Assembly (NCBI GenBank): GCA_024281675.1
Contig: JAMXAG010000020.1
Coordinates: 1 to 44,781 of the forward strand
Reading direction: 5' to 3'
DNA: 44,781 nucleotides
Source: Nitrosomonas sp.
GTDB lineage: Bacteria > Pseudomonadota > Gammaproteobacteria > Burkholderiales > Nitrosomonadaceae
Made by a program: the position numbers and the translations under genes. Shown here piece after piece: positions 18,701-25,779 of the stretch. Under the pieces are notes generated by a model. That model was given only the letters and a program-made list of their open reading frames with translations, was not told where the DNA came from and ran no database searches. Within the stretch, counting starts at the first letter, position 1, and every line of letters starts with the position of its first letter.

Positions 18701-19450
18701 TTACAAAAACAAAAAAATACCAATTAGTGAAATACCACCTACGGCGTATATGAATGGGCTATCCCAAGTATGCGGAGAAAAGGCTTCTGCCAAAGTCATT
18801 AGAATGGGGATTGTGAGTAGCGCGACTATCAATTGAATTGCGTTGAAATAGGGATGAAATGCTAAGATTGTGATAAAAGCGGTTACAAATACACAAGCGC
18901 TGCCCGCATAACTCCGAACATATTTTTCCTTAGTAAAAAGCGCATAAGTTGTATATTTTCGTTTTCCAAATCTTATGCCAATTGGTTCTGCGAGGCCATC
19001 GCCTATCCCGTTGACTATAATAATAATCATCAGGAGTGGTAGCATACCGTGATTCTCGAAGTAGATCAGTAATGGAATGAGTACTAAATAGCTAGCAATA
19101 AATTGTGTGTACAGCCATACCAGTGTAAACGGCCTATCCTCGGGTCTATCAAACGAACAAAACATCACCTGAAGTAGCCTAAATCTATTTCGCAATGGCG
19201 CTATGAAAAATGTCAGAAATATAAATGCGCATACCATATCCATAATAAATGTGACTGCACTGTATGGATATTCAACGACTAATAATGATAGTAGTGTCGG
19301 GAGAAAGAAAAATGCGAAGTGATTGATTTTTCGAGTGTAGTTGACCTTGAAGTTTCGATCGATGACTAATATTCCATTGATATAGTGGATTGTAAATAAC
19401 AATACATAAAAGTACATGTGATGCAACCAGTATTCTGAGGGAATGCTCAT
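18701..19450 (-). CDS. Dolichol/phytol-kinase-like CTP-dependent membrane kinase
   Basis: A 249-residue protein with about seven to eight membrane helices. The key segment NGIGDGLAEPIGIRFGKRKY, followed by RSYAGSACVFVTAF, fits the CTP-dependent lipid kinase/cytidylyltransferase-like family (dolichol kinase, phytol kinase VTE5, yeast Dgk1), where GDxxA, G+xxGK and KSxxGS form the nucleotide site. It would phosphorylate a lipid alcohol such as a polyprenol, phytol or diacylglycerol in the inner membrane; the substrate is unknown. It is transcribed away from the Fur-box operon, with 215 bases between the start codons. Confidence 0.72.
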   Translation of the reverse strand: MSIPSEYWLHHMYFYVLLFTIHYINGILVIDRNFKVNYTRKINHFAFFFLPTLLSLLVVEYPYSAVTFIMDMVCAFIFLTFFIAPLRNRFRLLQVMFCSFDRPEDRPFTLVWLYTQFIASYLVLIPLLIYFENHGMLPLLMIIIIVNGIGDGLAEPIGIRFGKRKYTTYALFTKEKYVRSYAGSACVFVTAFITILAFHPYFNAIQLIVALLTIPILMTLAEAFSPHTWDSPFIYAVGGISLIGIFLFL

Positions 19451-19598: not shown

Positions 19599-19627
19599 TT
19601 GAAAAACTAAACAATAATGATTATCAT
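19599..19627 (+). promoter_or_regulatory. Sigma70 promoter of the iron-regulated oxidase operon
   Basis: A -35 box TTGAAA (19599-19604) and a -10 box TATCAT (19622-19627) are separated by exactly 17 bases. The -10 lies inside the Fur box, so bound Fur would block RNA polymerase directly. The transcript would start about 30 bases before the ATG at 19666. Confidence 0.7.
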
Positions 19628-19631
19628 TAGC
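19613..19631 (+). promoter_or_regulatory. Fur box (iron-dependent repressor site)
   Basis: AATAATGATTATCATTAGC matches the 19-bp Fur consensus GATAATGATAATCATTATC at 16 of 19 positions, with the inner ATAATGAT/ATCATTA palindrome intact. It overlaps the -10 box of the promoter for the gene at 19666. This is the main evidence that the downstream genes respond to iron. Confidence 0.85.
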
Positions 19632-19665
19632 TTTCTTATCTATTATTTTAAGGAGATTAAGGAGA

Positions 19666-21918
19666 ATGTATTTATTCAATCAACTCGTAGTCAAGATGAA
19701 GAATATAGCGATTATGGGTTTTATGATGTTTTTTGCTTGCAGTGGTAGCGGTGTTTTAGCAGCAACTGCAAGTGTTACAGAGATCCAAGCCGCTGTTGTT
19801 GCTTTCCAAACCATAGGAAATTTACGTCAAGAATCTCCGATCAATGGTGGGGCGATTGCAAATGCGTATACAGGCGCATTACAAAACTTGGCAATGGAGA
19901 TTGACGAAGCGAATAATCTTGAATTAGACAAAGACATTCAAGTGGCGATTGAAGATATTAAGAATAGTAAAGATCCAGCATTAGCAGCGCAAGTTGTCGA
20001 TAAAACTCTGCAGCGTGTTTTTTATCAATCGATATGGAATCGCATTACGGCTATCCGCGATGAATTCAATACGAGCAGCTCGGATACTTTGATGCAGCTA
20101 CTTTTACAAGCGGAAGCAGCTTTTGTGGCAATCGAAAAAACTGTTGCAAGAGAGAATCAAGTGCTCACTGCTGATAAAAAAGCACTTGAAGCGGGTACTA
20201 ATCCAGGCTTGGATGTGGCGATTAAAAACTCATTTGCCAGAGTCAAAGCAGCTTTGAATAAAAGTAATCCAAATGAAGATTTTGCCACTTTGCAAGTGGA
20301 ACGGTATGGCATTCGTATGTCATTAGCACGTGCATATTATATCGGTGTATTACGTGAAGTATCCGGAGTTATAAGTAATCGCGATGCTGATGCCGATGAA
20401 GCGCGCGAAGCATTAAAAGAGGGGGAAATTTTTTATCGCATCATCGAATCGCTCATTGCACGTGATAACCCGGCAGGAAGTGCATTTTTGAAATCTCGTT
20501 TGACTGGTAGATTATCGGAAATTGATGCAGATACTTTTGTGAGTGAATTAAGTAAGGGATTGATCGGTCGGGTTAAAGCAGAAATGACAGGGCAAGCGAG
20601 TGCTGTTGGCAGTGATCGTCCGCAAGCCATGGCTGAAGCCGCTGGTGCAGTTTATTTCGCCAAGATGATGTTTCCAGACATTGAATTACGTTTAGGTGCT
20701 GCGGTACGAACGGATCTTGAAACAGAACTTAATAACTTGCAAGTAGCCAGTAGTGAAAACAGCGTTGAGAAATCTACGCAAGCACGTGACGCAATTACCG
20801 CCATTCTGACTAATTATGAAGGTATGTTGAAAGTTGCAAAATACGAAACTTCAACGACTACGACTATCATCGATGAGGCTGTTAAAAGCTTTCAAACGAT
20901 CGGTGAATTACGCAGACAAGCGACCGTTGATGGGGGGGCTATTGAAGCCGCTTATCAAGGTAATTTACAAGAATTGACAAAAATTGTCGACCAAATATAT
21001 GGTTTATCGGTTGATAGCGATGTATTGTCCGCCATCAATTCAATCAAAAATCAGATTGATGTGCCATTAGCCGCGCAAATCATCGATAAGTCATTGCAGC
21101 GCGTTTTTGCTATTGCGGTCTATGATAGAACGACGTTAGTAGTCAATCAGTTTGATAATCTTTCTGCGGATCAATTGATTCTGGAGTGGGATAGGGCTTA
21201 TTCAGCTTTTCAGGCTATTAGTGGTACAGCTTCACGTTTAAACAAAGTGCTCACGAGTGATAAAAAATCGTTACAAGATGGCCGGGATCCTGATTTGGAT
21301 TACCAAATTCTGCAGGCTTTTGAATATGGTAAGCAAGCGCTCGCAAAAACAAGTGAAGAGAATCATTTGGATGTATCGATCGCGCGCGAAGGCATTGTTG
21401 TTCCATTAGTCAGAACTTATCTGATTGGCGTTTTACGTGAAGTTGAAGGAATCATTGGCAATCGTGATGCCGATGTTGCTGATGCACGAGAAGCTCAAGT
21501 TGAAGGCGAATATTTCTATCGCATTATTGAAGGATTTATCGCGCAAGACAATCCGTCCGGTAGTAATCGTATTAAGGCACAACTAATTGGCGATCTAGCT
21601 ACTGTTTCGGCAGATGAAATCGTCAGTGATATCAGCAAGGGCATGATTGGGCAAATAAACCGCAGTATTAATCAGATTGCAGCAACATTCTCAACGGATA
21701 AAAGTCAAGCGCTGATAGCAGTGGAAGCCATCGACTTGTATGCCAGTAGCTTTCTACCTGATTTGGAATTGCGCTTAGATACATTGCGCCGTGTGAAAAT
21801 AGAAAATGCCATTCGTAATTTGAAGCATGCCATTCAAACAACGGATTCGGAGCGAGCAGTTGCTGCTAAAGCAGTGATTGATGATGTTCTTTCACAATAC
21901 CAAGGGCAATTGATCTAA
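19666..21918 (+). CDS. Secreted protein with two tandem copies of an unrecognised helical domain
   Basis: A 750-residue exported protein. The signal peptide is MKNIAIMGFMMFFACSGSGV and a few more residues, ending LAA, with a Met 10 residues upstream as the chosen start (AGGAG ten bases before it). The mature chain is two copies of a ~350-residue all-helical domain, about 36-385 and 396-750. The copies share AFQTIG(N/E)LR, GGAI.(A/N).AY, AAQ(V/I)(V/I)DK(T/S)LQRVF, VLT(A/S)DKK, and (I/L)GVLREV(S/E)G(V/I)I(S/G)NRDAD. They also share AREA...EGE.FYRIIE and DNP(A/S)GS. The conserved acidic Glu/Asp clusters in the last three segments are possible metal ligands. I know no named family. It is the first gene behind the Fur box and is followed by a ceruloplasmin-like oxidase, so a periplasmic iron-binding or iron-donor role is plausible but not shown. 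Confidence 0.8.
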   Translation: MYLFNQLVVKMKNIAIMGFMMFFACSGSGVLAATASVTEIQAAVVAFQTIGNLRQESPINGGAIANAYTGALQNLAMEIDEANNLELDKDIQVAIEDIKNSKDPALAAQVVDKTLQRVFYQSIWNRITAIRDEFNTSSSDTLMQLLLQAEAAFVAIEKTVARENQVLTADKKALEAGTNPGLDVAIKNSFARVKAALNKSNPNEDFATLQVERYGIRMSLARAYYIGVLREVSGVISNRDADADEAREALKEGEIFYRIIESLIARDNPAGSAFLKSRLTGRLSEIDADTFVSELSKGLIGRVKAEMTGQASAVGSDRPQAMAEAAGAVYFAKMMFPDIELRLGAAVRTDLETELNNLQVASSENSVEKSTQARDAITAILTNYEGMLKVAKYETSTTTTIIDEAVKSFQTIGELRRQATVDGGAIEAAYQGNLQELTKIVDQIYGLSVDSDVLSAINSIKNQIDVPLAAQIIDKSLQRVFAIAVYDRTTLVVNQFDNLSADQLILEWDRAYSAFQAISGTASRLNKVLTSDKKSLQDGRDPDLDYQILQAFEYGKQALAKTSEENHLDVSIAREGIVVPLVRTYLIGVLREVEGIIGNRDADVADAREAQVEGEYFYRIIEGFIAQDNPSGSNRIKAQLIGDLATVSADEIVSDISKGMIGQINRSINQIAATFSTDKSQALIAVEAIDLYASSFLPDLELRLDTLRRVKIENAIRNLKHAIQTTDSERAVAAKAVIDDVLSQYQGQLI

Positions 21919-21924
21919 AAATCC

Positions 21925-21960
21925 AAGGTAATTTGTCCGGAAATTACGGCAAATTACCTT
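21925..21960 (+). terminator. Hairpin after the two-repeat gene, possible partial terminator
   Basis: Perfect 11-bp inverted repeat AAGGTAATTTG (21925-21935) and CAAATTACCTT (21950-21960), 14-base loop. There is no long T tract after it, so it may attenuate or stabilise the mRNA 3' end rather than fully stop transcription into the oxidase gene. Confidence 0.5.
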
Positions 21961-22124
21961 CTGGAATGATTCAGTAAGCGAGCTCTACTAGCTTAAATCA
22001 CACACCACCAGTTACCACCATTCTTTGGCTATCAATTAACGCCGAATAGAAAAACTTCATAGAATAGTGAAATGATCTTCAAAGGTGATTGGAATTTCGT
22101 TTGTCAGTATGAGGAGGGCATTGG

Positions 22125-23180
22125 ATGTCTTGGAGGAAAGTAGGTTGTTCGTTCATTATCACTGTGTTGGTCGGATTGATTCATACATCCATATTGGCTA
22201 ATGTGGATCGAGTTTATTGGATCGCGGCGGATGAAGTGCATTGGGATTATGCACCGTCCTTCCCAATCAATCCGATGACTAATACCGAATTTACTGCGGA
22301 GCAACGCGTTTTTGTCGAGCAGGGAATTGGAAGGCGTTACTTAAAAGCAATTTATCGTGAATACAATGAAGGCTTTGCAGGATTTAAACAACGTGGTTCT
22401 GAAGAAGCACATATGGGCATTCTCGGCCCGGTCATTCGGGCCGCAGTCGGTGATAAAATTACCGTACATTTCAAAAACAACACACGCTTTCCGACTAGTA
22501 TACATCCACATGGAGTGTTGTATACCAAAGCGCATGAAGGTGTGCCACATACCGAAGGGTTGGTGGCGCCGGGCGGTCAGTACACTTATCAATGGGAAGT
22601 GCCGGAACGTGCAGGGCCAGGGCCTAATGATCCGTCTTCCATTGTTTGGATTTATCACAGCCACAACAATGAACCTGCCGATACCAATGCCGGATTGATT
22701 GGGCCTATCGTCATCACAAAAAAGGGCTTTGAGACTGCTACTAGAAAACCCAGTGATGTGGATCGTGAATTTTTTTCGCTATTTTCAGTGTTTGATGAAA
22801 ATGCCAGTCTCTATCTTGAAGCTAATTTACCTTCTTGCAGTGGTATCTGTGATCCATCGGATGAGGATTTTCAGGAAAGCAATCTTATGCATGGCATCAA
22901 TGGTTACGTCTACGACAATAACATCGGTTACATCATGAGGAAGGGGGAACGCGTGCGTTGGTATATCCTGGGATTAGGAACAGAGGTCGATCTTCACTCA
23001 CCGCATTGGCATGGTGCAACGCTGCTACACAATGGCAATCGGGTGGATGTTACTGAAGTATTGCCCGCGGCGACTAAAACACTCGATATGCGTCCCGATG
23101 TATCCGGGAGTTGGATGTATCACTGTCACGTAAACGATCACATTACTGCCGGTATGATGACCTCATTTAAAGTTGAGTAG
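22125..23180 (+). CDS. Two-domain ceruloplasmin-like multicopper oxidase (probable ferroxidase)
   Basis: A 351-residue exported enzyme (signal peptide MSWRKVGCSFIITVLVGLIH..., mature start near NVDRVYW). The sequence resembles vertebrate ceruloplasmin domain pairs: YWIAADEVHWDYAPS, YREYN, EEAHMGILGPVI, DVDREFFSLFSVFDEN, and DEDFQESNLMHGINGYVY. Copper ligands are visible: HPHG (127-130), YHSH (H178, H180), HSPHWHG (H291, H294, H296), and HCH 333-335 with H339 and M344. The type 1 copper set (H291, C334, H339, M344) occurs only in domain 2, since domain 1 has Ser where Cys would be; this is the type B two-domain layout. It would oxidise Fe(II), or possibly Mn(II) or phenols, with O2 in the periplasm. 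A strong GAGGAGGG Shine-Dalgarno precedes the start. Copper oxidase is firm; ferroxidase is inferred from similarity and the Fur box. Confidence 0.88.
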   Translation: MSWRKVGCSFIITVLVGLIHTSILANVDRVYWIAADEVHWDYAPSFPINPMTNTEFTAEQRVFVEQGIGRRYLKAIYREYNEGFAGFKQRGSEEAHMGILGPVIRAAVGDKITVHFKNNTRFPTSIHPHGVLYTKAHEGVPHTEGLVAPGGQYTYQWEVPERAGPGPNDPSSIVWIYHSHNNEPADTNAGLIGPIVITKKGFETATRKPSDVDREFFSLFSVFDENASLYLEANLPSCSGICDPSDEDFQESNLMHGINGYVYDNNIGYIMRKGERVRWYILGLGTEVDLHSPHWHGATLLHNGNRVDVTEVLPAATKTLDMRPDVSGSWMYHCHVNDHITAGMMTSFKVE

Positions 23181-23281
23181 CACATTTTTCTATTTGAAAA
23201 ACACCCGTCCGTTTATCGTAATTGATTGGGAAGGTAACGGTTGCTATATTTTTTAATAATTAATTAGATAAGAAATAAAAT

Positions 23282-24691
23282 ATGAATCAATATTTTCGTA
23301 AATTGCTTGTAATCATCGTATTATTGATTACACTCCCCATCCTGTCTATTGCTGCTGAAAACGCATCTAGTGTTTCAGCAATCAATCGTCATGGTATTGA
23401 TAAAACTATTAGCGCTCATGGGTTTATTGATTTTAACAATGCCTTTTTTAAAAAAATGGGTACTAACGACAGAACATGCGCTACTTGCCATGTTCCTACG
23501 GAAGGCTGGGCGATTACACCGAAAGGAACCCAAAAACGTTTTGACCAAACAGCCGGTCTAGATCCGCTATTTCGCTTGGTAGACGGGGCCAATTCTCCGA
23601 ATGCTGATGTCTCGACTATTGAGAAACGCCGCCAGGCTTATAGCATGCTGTTGAACAAAGCCAATATACGTGTTGGTATAGGTATACCAGCGAATGCTGA
23701 GTTTGAATTGATTGCAATCGATGATCCGTATGGTTTTGCCCATGCAAATGAATTATCGTTGTTTCGAAGACCCATGCCAACTACGAATCTAAAGTTTCTT
23801 AGTGCGGTGATGTGGGATGGACGTGAAACAACTCGGAGCGATACTTCTACGGATTGTATTTTTGGTACAACGACTTGCTTTTCACCGGTAGCTTTTGATT
23901 TATCGACACAAGCCAATCATGCAACACGAGGTCATGCTGAAGCTTTAGCCGATCTTACCGAGGCAGAGCGAATCGAAATCGTAAATTTTGAAATGGGGTT
24001 ATTTACAGCACAAATAATCGATAATAACGCAGGAAGTTTGACGAGAAATAGAGTGAATGGTGGGCCTGGTTTTTTGATGACCCAAGATTATTATTTTGGT
24101 ATTAATGATACTTTGGTTGGGGATTATCGGACTCGTGAATCCTTCGATTCCAACGTTATGTCTTTATACAATACTTGGGAACGTTATTCTAGCCGTGCAA
24201 CTAATCAAACAGAAAGAGCACGCGGTGCAATTGCACGTGGCCAAGCTTTATTTAATAATAAGGTGATTCAAATTAGTGGCGTTGCCGGTATCAATGATGA
24301 TCTGAATATCGCTGTATTGAAAGGTACTTGCACTACATGCCATAACACACCGAACTCGGGTAATCACTCAACTCCCATGCCGCTGAATATCGGTATTGCG
24401 GATGCATCGCGTCGCACACCTGATATGCCTTTGTATACATTAAGAAAAAAAATAACTGGAGAAATTATGCAAACTACTGATCCGGGTCGTGCATTACTAA
24501 CAGGCAAATGGAAGGATATTGGTCGTTTCAAAGGGCCAATATTGCGTTCTGTTGCATCACGTCCACCGTATTTTCATGATGGTTCAGCAAAAGATCTGAA
24601 AGCAGTTATTGATTTCTATGATCAACGTTTCAAAATACGCTTGACTGAAAAAGAAAAAGCAGATCTCGTGGTTTTTTTAGCTACTTTGTAA
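23282..24691 (+). CDS. Di-heme cytochrome c peroxidase/MauG-like protein
   Basis: A 469-residue periplasmic protein with a signal peptide (KLLVIIVLLITLPILSIAA). Two c-type heme sites are visible: CATCH at 66-70 and CTTCH at 350-354. MWDGRETT and GPILRSVASRPPYFHDGSAK are typical of the CcpA/MauG/MbnH superfamily. Such enzymes reduce H2O2 with electrons from small cytochromes, or make oxidative protein modifications. It is the third gene of the Fur-box group, 101 bases after the copper oxidase. It could protect against peroxide made during iron oxidation, or modify a partner protein. The substrate is unknown. Confidence 0.9.
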   Translation: MNQYFRKLLVIIVLLITLPILSIAAENASSVSAINRHGIDKTISAHGFIDFNNAFFKKMGTNDRTCATCHVPTEGWAITPKGTQKRFDQTAGLDPLFRLVDGANSPNADVSTIEKRRQAYSMLLNKANIRVGIGIPANAEFELIAIDDPYGFAHANELSLFRRPMPTTNLKFLSAVMWDGRETTRSDTSTDCIFGTTTCFSPVAFDLSTQANHATRGHAEALADLTEAERIEIVNFEMGLFTAQIIDNNAGSLTRNRVNGGPGFLMTQDYYFGINDTLVGDYRTRESFDSNVMSLYNTWERYSSRATNQTERARGAIARGQALFNNKVIQISGVAGINDDLNIAVLKGTCTTCHNTPNSGNHSTPMPLNIGIADASRRTPDMPLYTLRKKITGEIMQTTDPGRALLTGKWKDIGRFKGPILRSVASRPPYFHDGSAKDLKAVIDFYDQRFKIRLTEKEKADLVVFLATL

Positions 24692-24709: not shown

Positions 24710-24752
24710 CTAGGAATTCCAGCATAGTGGACCACTATGCTGGAATTCCTAG
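24710..24752. repeat. Perfect 43-bp palindrome
   Basis: Arms of 21 bases (24710-24730 and 24732-24752) match perfectly around one central A. Each arm reads CTAGGAATTCCAGCATAGTG plus G from its outer end. It starts 18 bases after the peroxidase stop. The TA GGAATTCC...GGAATTCC TA outline resembles two facing IS ends (IS630/mariner elements duplicate TA), but no transposase is present. It could also act as a strong 3' hairpin for the peroxidase mRNA. Confidence 0.8.
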
Positions 24753-24847: not shown

Positions 24848-25348
24848 CTAATTTTTTTTAAGATAACTGTCAAAATAAATAGAGTGACATGTATATCCAC
24901 CAGGATTTCGTTCTAGGTAATCTTGATGATAGTCCTCTGCAGACCAGAAAGGTGTATACGGTTCAAGTGTCGTGACAACAGGATCCGGCCATCGTGCCGA
25001 TTTGTTTACAATATTAATTATTTCTTCGGCAACAGCTTTTTCTTCATCATTTGCATAGAATATCGCAGAACGGTAGGAAGTTCCTCGGTCGTTGCCTTGG
25101 CGGTTAAGTGTCGTTGGGTTATGGATTTGAAAGAAAAAATCCAAAATATTTTTATAGCTGGTTTTTTCTGGATCGTATGTAATTTCAACAGCTTCTGCAT
25201 GCCCAGGATGATTGTGGTAAGTAGGATTATCGTTTTGTCCACCGGTATACCCAACTTCCGTATTCATTACTCCGGGTTGCCTACGAAGCAAATCTTCTAA
25301 GCCCCAGAAACACCCACCTGCTAAAACTACTTTTTTATAAATTGACAT
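24848..25348 (-). CDS. msrA: Peptide methionine-S-sulfoxide reductase MsrA
   Basis: Repairs the S form of methionine sulfoxide with thioredoxin as reductant. At 166 residues it has family length. The catalytic motif GCFWG (C13) is near the N-terminus, with [25 protein letters not shown], and [16 protein letters not shown] further on. It starts 8 bases after msrB ends, so the two share an operon and repair both sulfoxide forms. The oxidative-stress theme fits the neighbouring peroxidase and oxidase. Confidence 0.97.
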
Positions 25349-25356
25349 TTTATGGT

Positions 25357-25779
25357 TTAGTTATTTTGCAAATCGAGGCAAATGCCATTGATGCAGTATC
25401 GATCGTGTCGTTCCAAAGCTCCAGAATCTTTCTCTTTTCTTTTAGGGCCATCTGGGAAAACATGACCTAAATGCGCATCACAGTTTGCGCAACGCACTTC
25501 CGTGCGATGCATACCGTGACTGTGGTCTGCAGTAAGTTTTACGGATTCTTGGTTGATTGGATCTGTAAATGAAGGCCAACCTGATCCTGAGTCAAATTGA
25601 GTATCTGAACTAAATAAACTTGCATCGCATATTGCACAGTGAAATACACCCTTTTTGTCGATATGTAATAAATCACTCGAATGAGGCCTTTCAGTTCCAC
25701 CTTGGCGCGCTACTTTATACAACTCTGGATTGTTTTCTTTTAGCTCTTTATCGGTTTTCATTGAGATATTTATGCTCAT
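25357..25779 (-). CDS. msrB: Peptide methionine-R-sulfoxide reductase MsrB
   Basis: Reduces the R form of methionine sulfoxide. It has 140 residues. The zinc-binding CxxC pairs are CAIC and CANC. The core is [32 protein letters not shown], and the catalytic Cys lies in RYCINGICL. Two starts are possible, ATG 25779 or ATG 25761 (MKTDKELK); neither has a clear Shine-Dalgarno. A -10-like TATAAT lies 14 bases before the first ATG. First gene of the msrB-msrA pair. Confidence 0.96.

Follow-up and report, generated by a model that had tools for sequence, protein, structure and literature searches.

In the alga Chlamydomonas, FEA1 is described as a periplasmic iron-deficiency protein that is co-expressed with FRE1 and FOX1, and its crystals were obtained only in the iron-free form (PMC8098128). 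FOX1 is counted among the six-domain relatives of ceruloplasmin, and a hypothetical two-domain ancestor of the six-domain oxidases has been discussed (PMC3600357). The doubled Fea1 protein of Ostreococcus carries iron, and the mode of action of FEA1 and its relatives is debated (PMC4855317). In human ceruloplasmin, the iron of domain 6 is bound by E272, E935, H940, and D1025 (PMC3738974). In this study, we analyzed a 44,781-nucleotide stretch of Nitrosomonas sp. DNA (contig JAMXAG010000020.1 of assembly GCA_024281675.1; contig C25 of a 2.81-Mb genome), hereafter called the window. It carries three plus-strand open reading frames (ORFs) behind one Fur-box promoter, which encode a two-repeat helical protein, a multicopper oxidase, and a di-heme enzyme. 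We gave the first gene product the working name FEA. A hydrophobic, signal-like stretch was read by eye at the N terminus of all three proteins, and the arrangement of a Fur-box promoter followed by three genes for exported proteins, first pointed out in a reading of the sequence without database searches (the sequence-only reading), was confirmed.

We consider it probable, with moderate confidence, that FEA is a Fur-controlled periplasmic Fe(III)-capture protein, accompanied by an optional ferroxidase and an optional protein-oxidizing enzyme, which serves TonB-linked iron uptake. The basis of this reading is what the sequence provides: the Fur box and its conservation, the neighboring genes, the copper and iron sites of the oxidase, and the heme and tyrosine motifs of the di-heme enzyme.

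Conservation of the Fur box and iron-related genes around FEA

The Fur box overlaps the promoter before FEA and matches the E. coli consensus at 17 of 19 positions on the minus strand and 16 of 19 on the plus strand. It was the top Fur site of the 44.8 kb; among 100 first-order Markov shuffles, none reached 17 matches and one reached 16. The 16/19 box that the sequence-only reading had placed over a σ70 promoter was thus recovered as the best site in the window. The promoter hexamers of that reading are also present, but taken alone they are at the chance level: the site is one of five 10/12 sites, and the hexamer scan gave a total of 17 against a shuffle mean of 15.2. The hexamers were rejected as decisive evidence on account of this count.

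FEA homologs were found in 28 of 61 genomes, namely the genome of the window and 27 of 36 others of the same genus; the 24 genomes that represent other families of the order gave none. Two short peptide patterns were run over the species genome collection, which is a weak test of absence outside Nitrosomonas, and yielded 58 FEA loci, 50 of which are titled Nitrosomonas. The remaining eight comprise six titled Nitrosomonadaceae, beta- or Proteobacteria, one in a Gammaproteobacteria metagenome-assembled genome (MAG) that has the Nitrosomonas gene order, and one on a Candidatus Anammoxibacter MAG contig, whose FEA is 44% identical. Locus L113 is probably a mis-binned Nitrosomonas contig, and the Anammoxibacter locus (L112) may reflect transfer or mis-binning; both are included in the counts, which together with the window cover 59 loci. 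The profile of the FEA family, run over 398 genomes of the phylum, matched in only two, both of this genus. The Anammoxibacter FEA (L112:9662-12190) has 843 amino acids (aa), with an N-terminal CarboxypepD_reg domain and both repeats, and a superoxide-dismutase-like gene was seen by eye near it.

With gene starts estimated from tblastn, the 300 bases before FEA contain a Fur box of at least 14/19 in 51 of the 59 loci, including 41 of the 47 in which a receptor gene lies just upstream. For the other genes, the test was positive in 0 of 17 cases before the oxidase, 0 of 8 before the di-heme gene, 4 of 46 before the receptor, and 19 of 40 before bfd; the background was 150 of 2993 random 300-mers, a set that includes real sites. 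The box before FEA is conserved despite the preceding receptor gene, and therefore FEA most likely heads its own Fur-controlled transcript. Fur control, as proposed in the sequence-only reading, is supported by these counts.

In 47 of 59 loci, a gene for a TonB-dependent receptor precedes FEA at a distance of at most 400 bases, and bfd-, bfr- or tonB-like genes, named from reading the sequence, were found upstream in 39 of 59. One representative receptor was checked by Pfam and has STN, plug, and barrel domains. In the genome of the window, the receptor ortholog (77% identical) is located on another contig, beside a bfd-like gene. In N. oligotropha Nm75 (L044/L075), a frameshift seems to have broken the receptor gene that precedes FEA into two ORFs. 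A function of the repeat protein in iron handling had been suggested before, and it gains support from the Fur box, the upstream TonB receptor, the FEA1-related profile match described below, and the frequent Bfd, Bfr or TonB-ExbBD genes upstream.

Probable relationship between FEA and algal FEA1

The two repeats of FEA are 42% identical to each other, and the AlphaFold2 model is all-helical, two-part, and confident (pLDDT 91.3). Foldseek searches with this model found nothing at E ≤ 0.001 in the PDB (best, 0.064) or in BFVD (best, 0.082), and no Pfam family scored above its cut-off. The assignments of FEA as an imelysin/EfeO-like or a transferrin-fold protein were rejected on these grounds. 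Ten positions hardly vary in either repeat (conserved in 49 to 51 of 52 rows): Tyr68, Asp80, Asp112, Asp170, Asp183, Glu231, Glu252, Tyr257, Asp338, and Tyr384. These Tyr, Asp, and Glu residues plausibly form a candidate pool of Fe(III) ligands, and FEA would bind iron.

The sole profile match of FEA was NF038033, the NCBIfam model named 'FEA1-related lipoprotein', which matched 22 of 25 FEA members at E ≤ 1e-3. The FEA of the window scored 33.6 bits (E 1.7e-8) and Chlamydomonas FEA1 45.1 bits (E 5.4e-12), both below the curated cut-off of 250 bits; the Anammoxibacter FEA scored 51.8 bits (E 5.2e-14). When proteins were halved, six of the eight half-proteins matched (E 1.6e-6 to 5.7e-3) at profile positions 228-386, and wherever positions were available the FEA matches fell at 228-389. 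Over the 398 genomes of the phylum, NF038033 gave matches in 16, and the 14 of these outside the genus all lie at profile positions 11-127 and were judged to be chance; the low-complexity N terminus of the profile yields chance matches of similar E elsewhere. Among 294 genomes of the Anammoxibacter phylum, only the Anammoxibacter genome itself matched at E ≤ 1e-7. No relatives were found in searches of viral contigs with FEA1 and FEA, or of plasmids with FEA1 and the Anammoxibacter FEA. The statement that the first gene product belongs to no known family thus holds insofar as the NF038033 match stays below its cut-off, and it has to be amended insofar as the match exists.

Direct comparison of FEA with FEA1 failed: hhalign gave a probability of 0.1%, and a hidden Markov model of the FEA repeat scored 0.2 bits against FEA1, within the range of 500 shuffles. 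Together with profile matches that are sub-threshold and extend over about 150 residues per repeat, and with the two half-proteins that have no match, this would agree with FEA being unrelated to algal FEA1 and serving, within the iron regulon, as a helical scaffold or in association with a receptor. We regard this as a minority possibility of some weight, because most FEA members match the profile, the available match positions are away from its chance-prone start, the bacterial scores are comparable to that of FEA1 itself, and the iron context of FEA rests on independent evidence. Kinship of FEA to FEA1 is likely but unproven from sequence comparison.

The Chlamydomonas system shares with this locus a periplasmic iron-deficiency protein matching NF038033, a ceruloplasmin-type oxidase alongside, and iron control, which for the bacterial locus is predicted from the Fur box (PMC8098128). 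In contrast, Chlamydomonas FEA1 is one unit of 344 aa with no detectable direct sequence likeness to the bacterial protein, whereas FEA has two repeats of about 355 aa; FOX1 has six domains and the oxidase here two; and the present system is bacterial, has a TonB receptor as partner, and lacks an FTR1 match in its genome. The algal system also includes the permease FTR1. Ot-Fea1 of Ostreococcus likewise has duplicated Fea1-type domains (PMC4855317), and it shares control by iron deprivation with diatom ISIP2a (phytotransferrin) and, as predicted, with the locus described here (PMC4855317; PMC7676907). FEA differs from these two proteins in having no C-terminal membrane helix (by eye), and the iron-transport motifs of Ot-Fea1 are rare in FEA (none in two and one in three of the five proteins inspected).

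A two-domain oxidase with the iron site of ceruloplasmin

Residues 29-350 of the oxidase match each two-domain unit of ceruloplasmin (5n0k; 7.2e-73 for the best unit and 4.6e-215 for the whole chain). The next-best matches were coagulation factors V and VIII, and two-domain laccases followed at 6.3e-16. The type 1 copper site (H291, C334, H339, and M344) lies in domain 2, as in ceruloplasmin. Residues E287, E251, H256, and D338 correspond to human E272, E935, H940, and D1025, respectively; the human numbering was worked out on the human sequence and confirmed against the aligned ceruloplasmin units, the third of which is incomplete. The ceruloplasmin kinship proposed in the sequence-only reading was therefore borne out, including a complete iron site, and all copper ligands are present. 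Six cupredoxin domains were looked for in the oxidase, and one two-domain unit was found.

The eight aligned oxidase orthologs show no variation at the 12 copper ligands or the four iron-site residues. A wider set of 26 rows was chosen by copper motifs, so that conservation of the copper ligands is partly by choice and that of the iron-site residues is not. In its 25 two-domain proteins, including relatives of about 45% identity, both the 12 copper ligands and the iron-site residues are invariant; the remaining 572-aa oxidase lacks the iron site in the alignment, but at just 26% identity its alignment there may be wrong. In unit 1 of human ceruloplasmin, a Tyr occupies the position of His256, which fits the published account of the non-binding domain 2 (PMC3738974). 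Since the iron site is present in 25 of 25 proteins of the wider set, it is, as judged from the alignment, a property of the wider bacterial oxidase group and not of the FEA pair alone.

These features suggest that the oxidase has Fe(II) oxidase (ferroxidase) activity. It resembles ceruloplasmin and hephaestin in sequence, in type 1 copper in the even domain, and in the four-residue iron site, and differs from them in its bacterial periplasmic setting and in having a single two-domain unit, which would presumably form a homotrimer. The concept of an iron-controlled copper ferroxidase is shared with yeast Fet3-Ftr1, although Fet3 has three domains (PMC3600357) and the present genome has no FTR1 match. 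Alternatively, the oxidase could be a copper or oxidative-stress enzyme whose pairing with an iron-controlled gene is secondary. Multicopper oxidases such as CueO often detoxify Cu(I), ammonia oxidizers are rich in copper enzymes, and msrA-/msrB-like genes lie just downstream on the opposite strand. We hold this to be very unlikely: ceruloplasmin is the nearest solved relative, the CopA and CueO models scored far below their cut-offs (75.1 of 478.95 and 50.5 of 525 bits, respectively), the iron site is complete, and the intact oxidase follows FEA, with its conserved Fur box, in most genomes that have it.

Two further loci carry such oxidases. On a plasmid of Methylocystis heyeri (L162), a ceruloplasmin-like two-domain oxidase adjoins a ferritin-family gene in a run of FMN_bind genes with ApbE (flavin transferase) and a b561-like protein. 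In another genome of the class (L152), a two-domain oxidase is located beside PepSY-TM and FMN-binding genes, with a porin and OmpW. These runs possibly represent another periplasmic iron-redox module.

Gene order and transcription of the locus

Intact oxidase orthologs (E<1e-200) were found in 10 of 61 genomes; all ten have FEA, adjacent in eight, and none of the nine FEA-less genomes of the genus has one. Among the 55 loci whose FEA reaches 650 aa or more, 14 have a full oxidase behind it, 8 the di-heme gene, and 2 both. Four of the 59 loci are missing from this set, three because they lie at contig ends and L084, which has FEA and a full oxidase, because of a misplaced start; L072 is labeled as having neither gene in this set, though it retains an oxidase fragment. 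Three units recur: receptor-FEA, FEA-oxidase, and FEA-di-heme enzyme. The FEA-oxidase pair is found in cultured relatives as well, among them N. oligotropha Nm75 (L075), N. aestuarii Nm36 (L107), and N. mobilis (L079). A conserved trio was rejected: of the 55 loci, only two, the window and a sister of 95% identity, have all three genes in order. The sequence-only reading therefore stands in its iron, Fur, and ceruloplasmin parts, and falls in treating the three genes as a conserved system.

The FEA-oxidase pair recurs over deep branches of the FEA tree, and the oxidase-only label is scattered on it (10 changes against a shuffled mean of 11.0; 140 of 500 shuffles as low). The simplest history would be an old FEA-oxidase pair with repeated loss of the oxidase and later arrival of the di-heme gene in two lineages.

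The gaps of 206 bases between FEA and the oxidase gene and of 101 bases between the oxidase and di-heme genes, and the hairpin near 21925, which had been taken as reasons to doubt full co-transcription, are real. The hairpin has a folding energy of −20.9 kcal/mol (z −4.1), and a terminator pattern scan found none at this site. In 45 of 56 loci, the sequence behind FEA folds with a z of −2.5 or lower (z-scores from 40 mononucleotide shuffles each); such folds would fit a pattern of much FEA and less oxidase, or a transcript end. Such gaps and folds, and the rarity of the three-gene order, are what would be expected if the genes formed separate transcripts, with only FEA in the Fur regulon and the genes being chance neighbors here. 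We find this somewhat unlikely in view of the recurrence of the FEA-oxidase pair across deep branches and the absence of a Fur box of at least 14/19 before the oxidase or di-heme genes. This absence would be expected if both genes ride on the FEA transcript, and co-transcription of FEA with its downstream genes is the arrangement that we infer. The features of the locus are listed in Table 1.

Table 1. Positions of the features of the FEA locus in the window
Feature	Position	Strand	Basis or remark
σ70-like promoter TTGAAA-17-TATCAT	19599..19627	+	hexamer scan; retained since the Fur box covers its −10 region
Fur box GCTAATGATAATCATTATT (17/19)	19613..19631	-	best site in the window
FEA, predicted exported 750-aa all-helical protein, two repeats, FEA1-related by profile (NF038033)	19666..21918	+	ORF, profile, AlphaFold2 model
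FEA repeat 1, about residues 34-389	19765..20832	+	repeat alignment
FEA repeat 2, residues 394-750	20845..21915	+	the only repeat here matching NF038033 alone
Strong RNA hairpin in the FEA-oxidase gap, no U run	21922..21965	+	possible transcript-end or processing element
Two-domain multicopper oxidase of ceruloplasmin type, 351 aa, type 1 copper in domain 2	22125..23180	+	
Iron-site motif E251-S-N-L-M-H256 (human ceruloplasmin E935, H940)	22875..22892	+	alignment; roles from PMC3738974
E287 (human ceruloplasmin E272/E971 position)	22983..22985	+	alignment; roles from PMC3738974
C334...M344 type 1 copper loop including iron-site D338 (human ceruloplasmin D1025)	23124..23156	+	alignment; PMC3738974
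Di-heme enzyme, CCP/MauG superfamily, MauG/MbnH-like, 469 aa	23282..24691	+	
Heme motif CATCH, residues 66-70	23477..23491	+	
Heme motif CTTCH, residues 350-354	24329..24343	+	
Y446	24617..24619	+	gap-free alignment to MauG chain position 294
Perfect 21-base inverted repeat directly 3' of the di-heme gene	24710-24752		RNA fold −43.4 kcal/mol, z −8.5

The inverted repeat behind the di-heme gene occurs once in the window, and no exact copy of its 16-base core was found among the 163 loci retrieved. Upstream of the promoter, a divergent gene (18701-19450, minus strand) encodes a membrane protein with no Pfam family above cut-off; a homolog was seen only in the near-identical sister (L033/L061) among the loci searched. 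We take its motifs to be dolichol/phytol-kinase-like. Genes resembling msrA and msrB, for methionine sulfoxide reductases, were recognized by eye convergent to the unit (24848-25779, minus strand).

The di-heme enzyme

Both heme motifs noted in the sequence-only reading are present. Pfam CCP_MauG (PF03150) scored 32.2 bits, above its gathering score of 25.6. The best NCBIfam names were MbnH and MauG, both far under cut-off, and the models TIGR03791 and TIGR04039 reached 41.8 of 443.85 and 49.3 of 362.85 bits, respectively. The predicted structure was not used (pLDDT 34). The C-terminal stretch aligns to MauG without gaps and places Tyr446, which is invariant in all five di-heme orthologs, at the position of Tyr294, the axial ligand of MauG. 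The idea of a simple peroxidase is therefore weakened, and of the two roles suggested earlier, removal of H2O2 recedes while modification of a partner gains; the alignment favors oxidation of a partner over plain peroxide removal. The two CxxCH motifs, the tyrosine, and the best NCBIfam names are shared with MauG and MbnH, whereas the length of 469 aa, the scores far below the family cut-offs, and the neighbors, which as far as named are not MauG or MbnH substrate genes, set the enzyme apart. In L037, a 1075-aa ORF, read by eye as transposase-like and fused to doubled PAS/GGDEF and EAL, lies between FEA and the di-heme gene.

Iron transport and the possible role of the TonB receptor

The sequence-only reading had noted the lack of a permease in the unit. 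No match to FTR1 was found in the genome of the window (4 of 14 controls were positive), nor to FeoB_C, and the FecCD permease family gave one partial match. The route of iron is partly answered by the TonB outer-membrane receptor that neighbors FEA in most of the genus. For other Nitrosomonas, a ferric ABC transporter and TonB siderophore receptors have been reported (PMC4786657, PMC4714114), and the step through an Fbp-type Fe(III) ABC transporter considered below rests on these relatives and not on this genome.

The receptor neighbor, of the STN type in the one case checked, would also suit a siderophore-processing module, in which the receptor takes up a xenosiderophore with FEA as its periplasmic partner, and either the siderophore (e.g., a catecholate) is oxidized or released Fe(II) is re-oxidized by the oxidase or di-heme enzyme. 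N. europaea is reported to make no siderophore and to use ferrioxamine (PMC3050691), which agrees with such a module. On the other hand, FEA has neither a Pfam match over cut-off nor a PDB fold match and nothing in it indicates siderophore binding, the oxidase retains a ceruloplasmin iron site that would be unneeded for organic substrates, and FecCD is represented by its single partial match. Siderophore processing thus appears unlikely.

Proposed function of the FEA module

In the reading that we favor, capture of Fe(III) by FEA, Fur would repress the module, which would serve periplasmic iron acquisition. FEA, a distant relative of algal FEA1, would capture Fe(III) in the periplasm. The oxidase would convert Fe(II) that enters through porins or is set free from carriers to Fe(III) with O2, which would keep the iron loadable and free of Fenton chemistry. 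The TonB receptor, whose gene adjoins FEA in most of the genus and lies at another site in this genome, would move ferric complexes across the outer membrane, and an inner-membrane Fe(III) ABC transporter like that reported for other Nitrosomonas would take the iron onward. In the minority of loci that encode it, the MauG-like enzyme would most likely oxidize residues of a partner, FEA being the obvious candidate, and not merely remove H2O2. Iron would be handed over between these components.

Several observations weigh against this reading. On the side of FEA, they are the NF038033 scores far under the curated cut-off, the chance-prone start of that profile, the failed direct comparisons with FEA1, and the lack of a PDB match. 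As for the oxidase, a full gene follows FEA in the low share of 15 of 59 loci, it is broken or a fragment in L069, L072, and L088, and FEA does without it in many species. Six of the nine FEA-less Nitrosomonas genomes hold a more distant two-domain oxidase, and the iron site, being common to distant relatives, does not by itself link the oxidase to FEA. The 206-base gap with its strong hairpin makes co-transcription uncertain, and no FTR1 permease was found.

A bolder version, which is speculative and which we rate as fairly unlikely, would see in the locus the bacterial equivalent of the ceruloplasmin-transferrin pair: a ceruloplasmin reduced to two domains would oxidize Fe(II) and load a two-lobed Fe(III) carrier of the FEA1/phytotransferrin type and of non-transferrin fold, and elsewhere a MauG-like enzyme would fill the same slot as an H2O2-driven oxidant that loads or matures the carrier.

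A literature search combining FEA1 and Nitrosomonas found nothing. Searches on multicopper oxidases, ferroxidases, and Fur in Nitrosomonas, on ceruloplasmin-like oxidases in ammonia oxidizers, and on phytotransferrin in bacteria gave no description of the module among the matches listed, as judged from titles and the starts of abstracts; the searches covered few subscription papers.

Ammonia oxidizers depend on many heme enzymes. If the proposed function is correct, a genus-wide, Fur-controlled bacterial relative of FEA1 together with a ceruloplasmin-type oxidase would offer a capture-and-oxidize step that is testable with soluble proteins expressed in E. coli, and the oxidase would provide a single-unit model of the ceruloplasmin iron site. 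The gene pair resembles a reduced form of the algal and animal proteins that oxidize and carry iron, and it would partly explain how ammonia oxidizers acquire iron when it is scarce.

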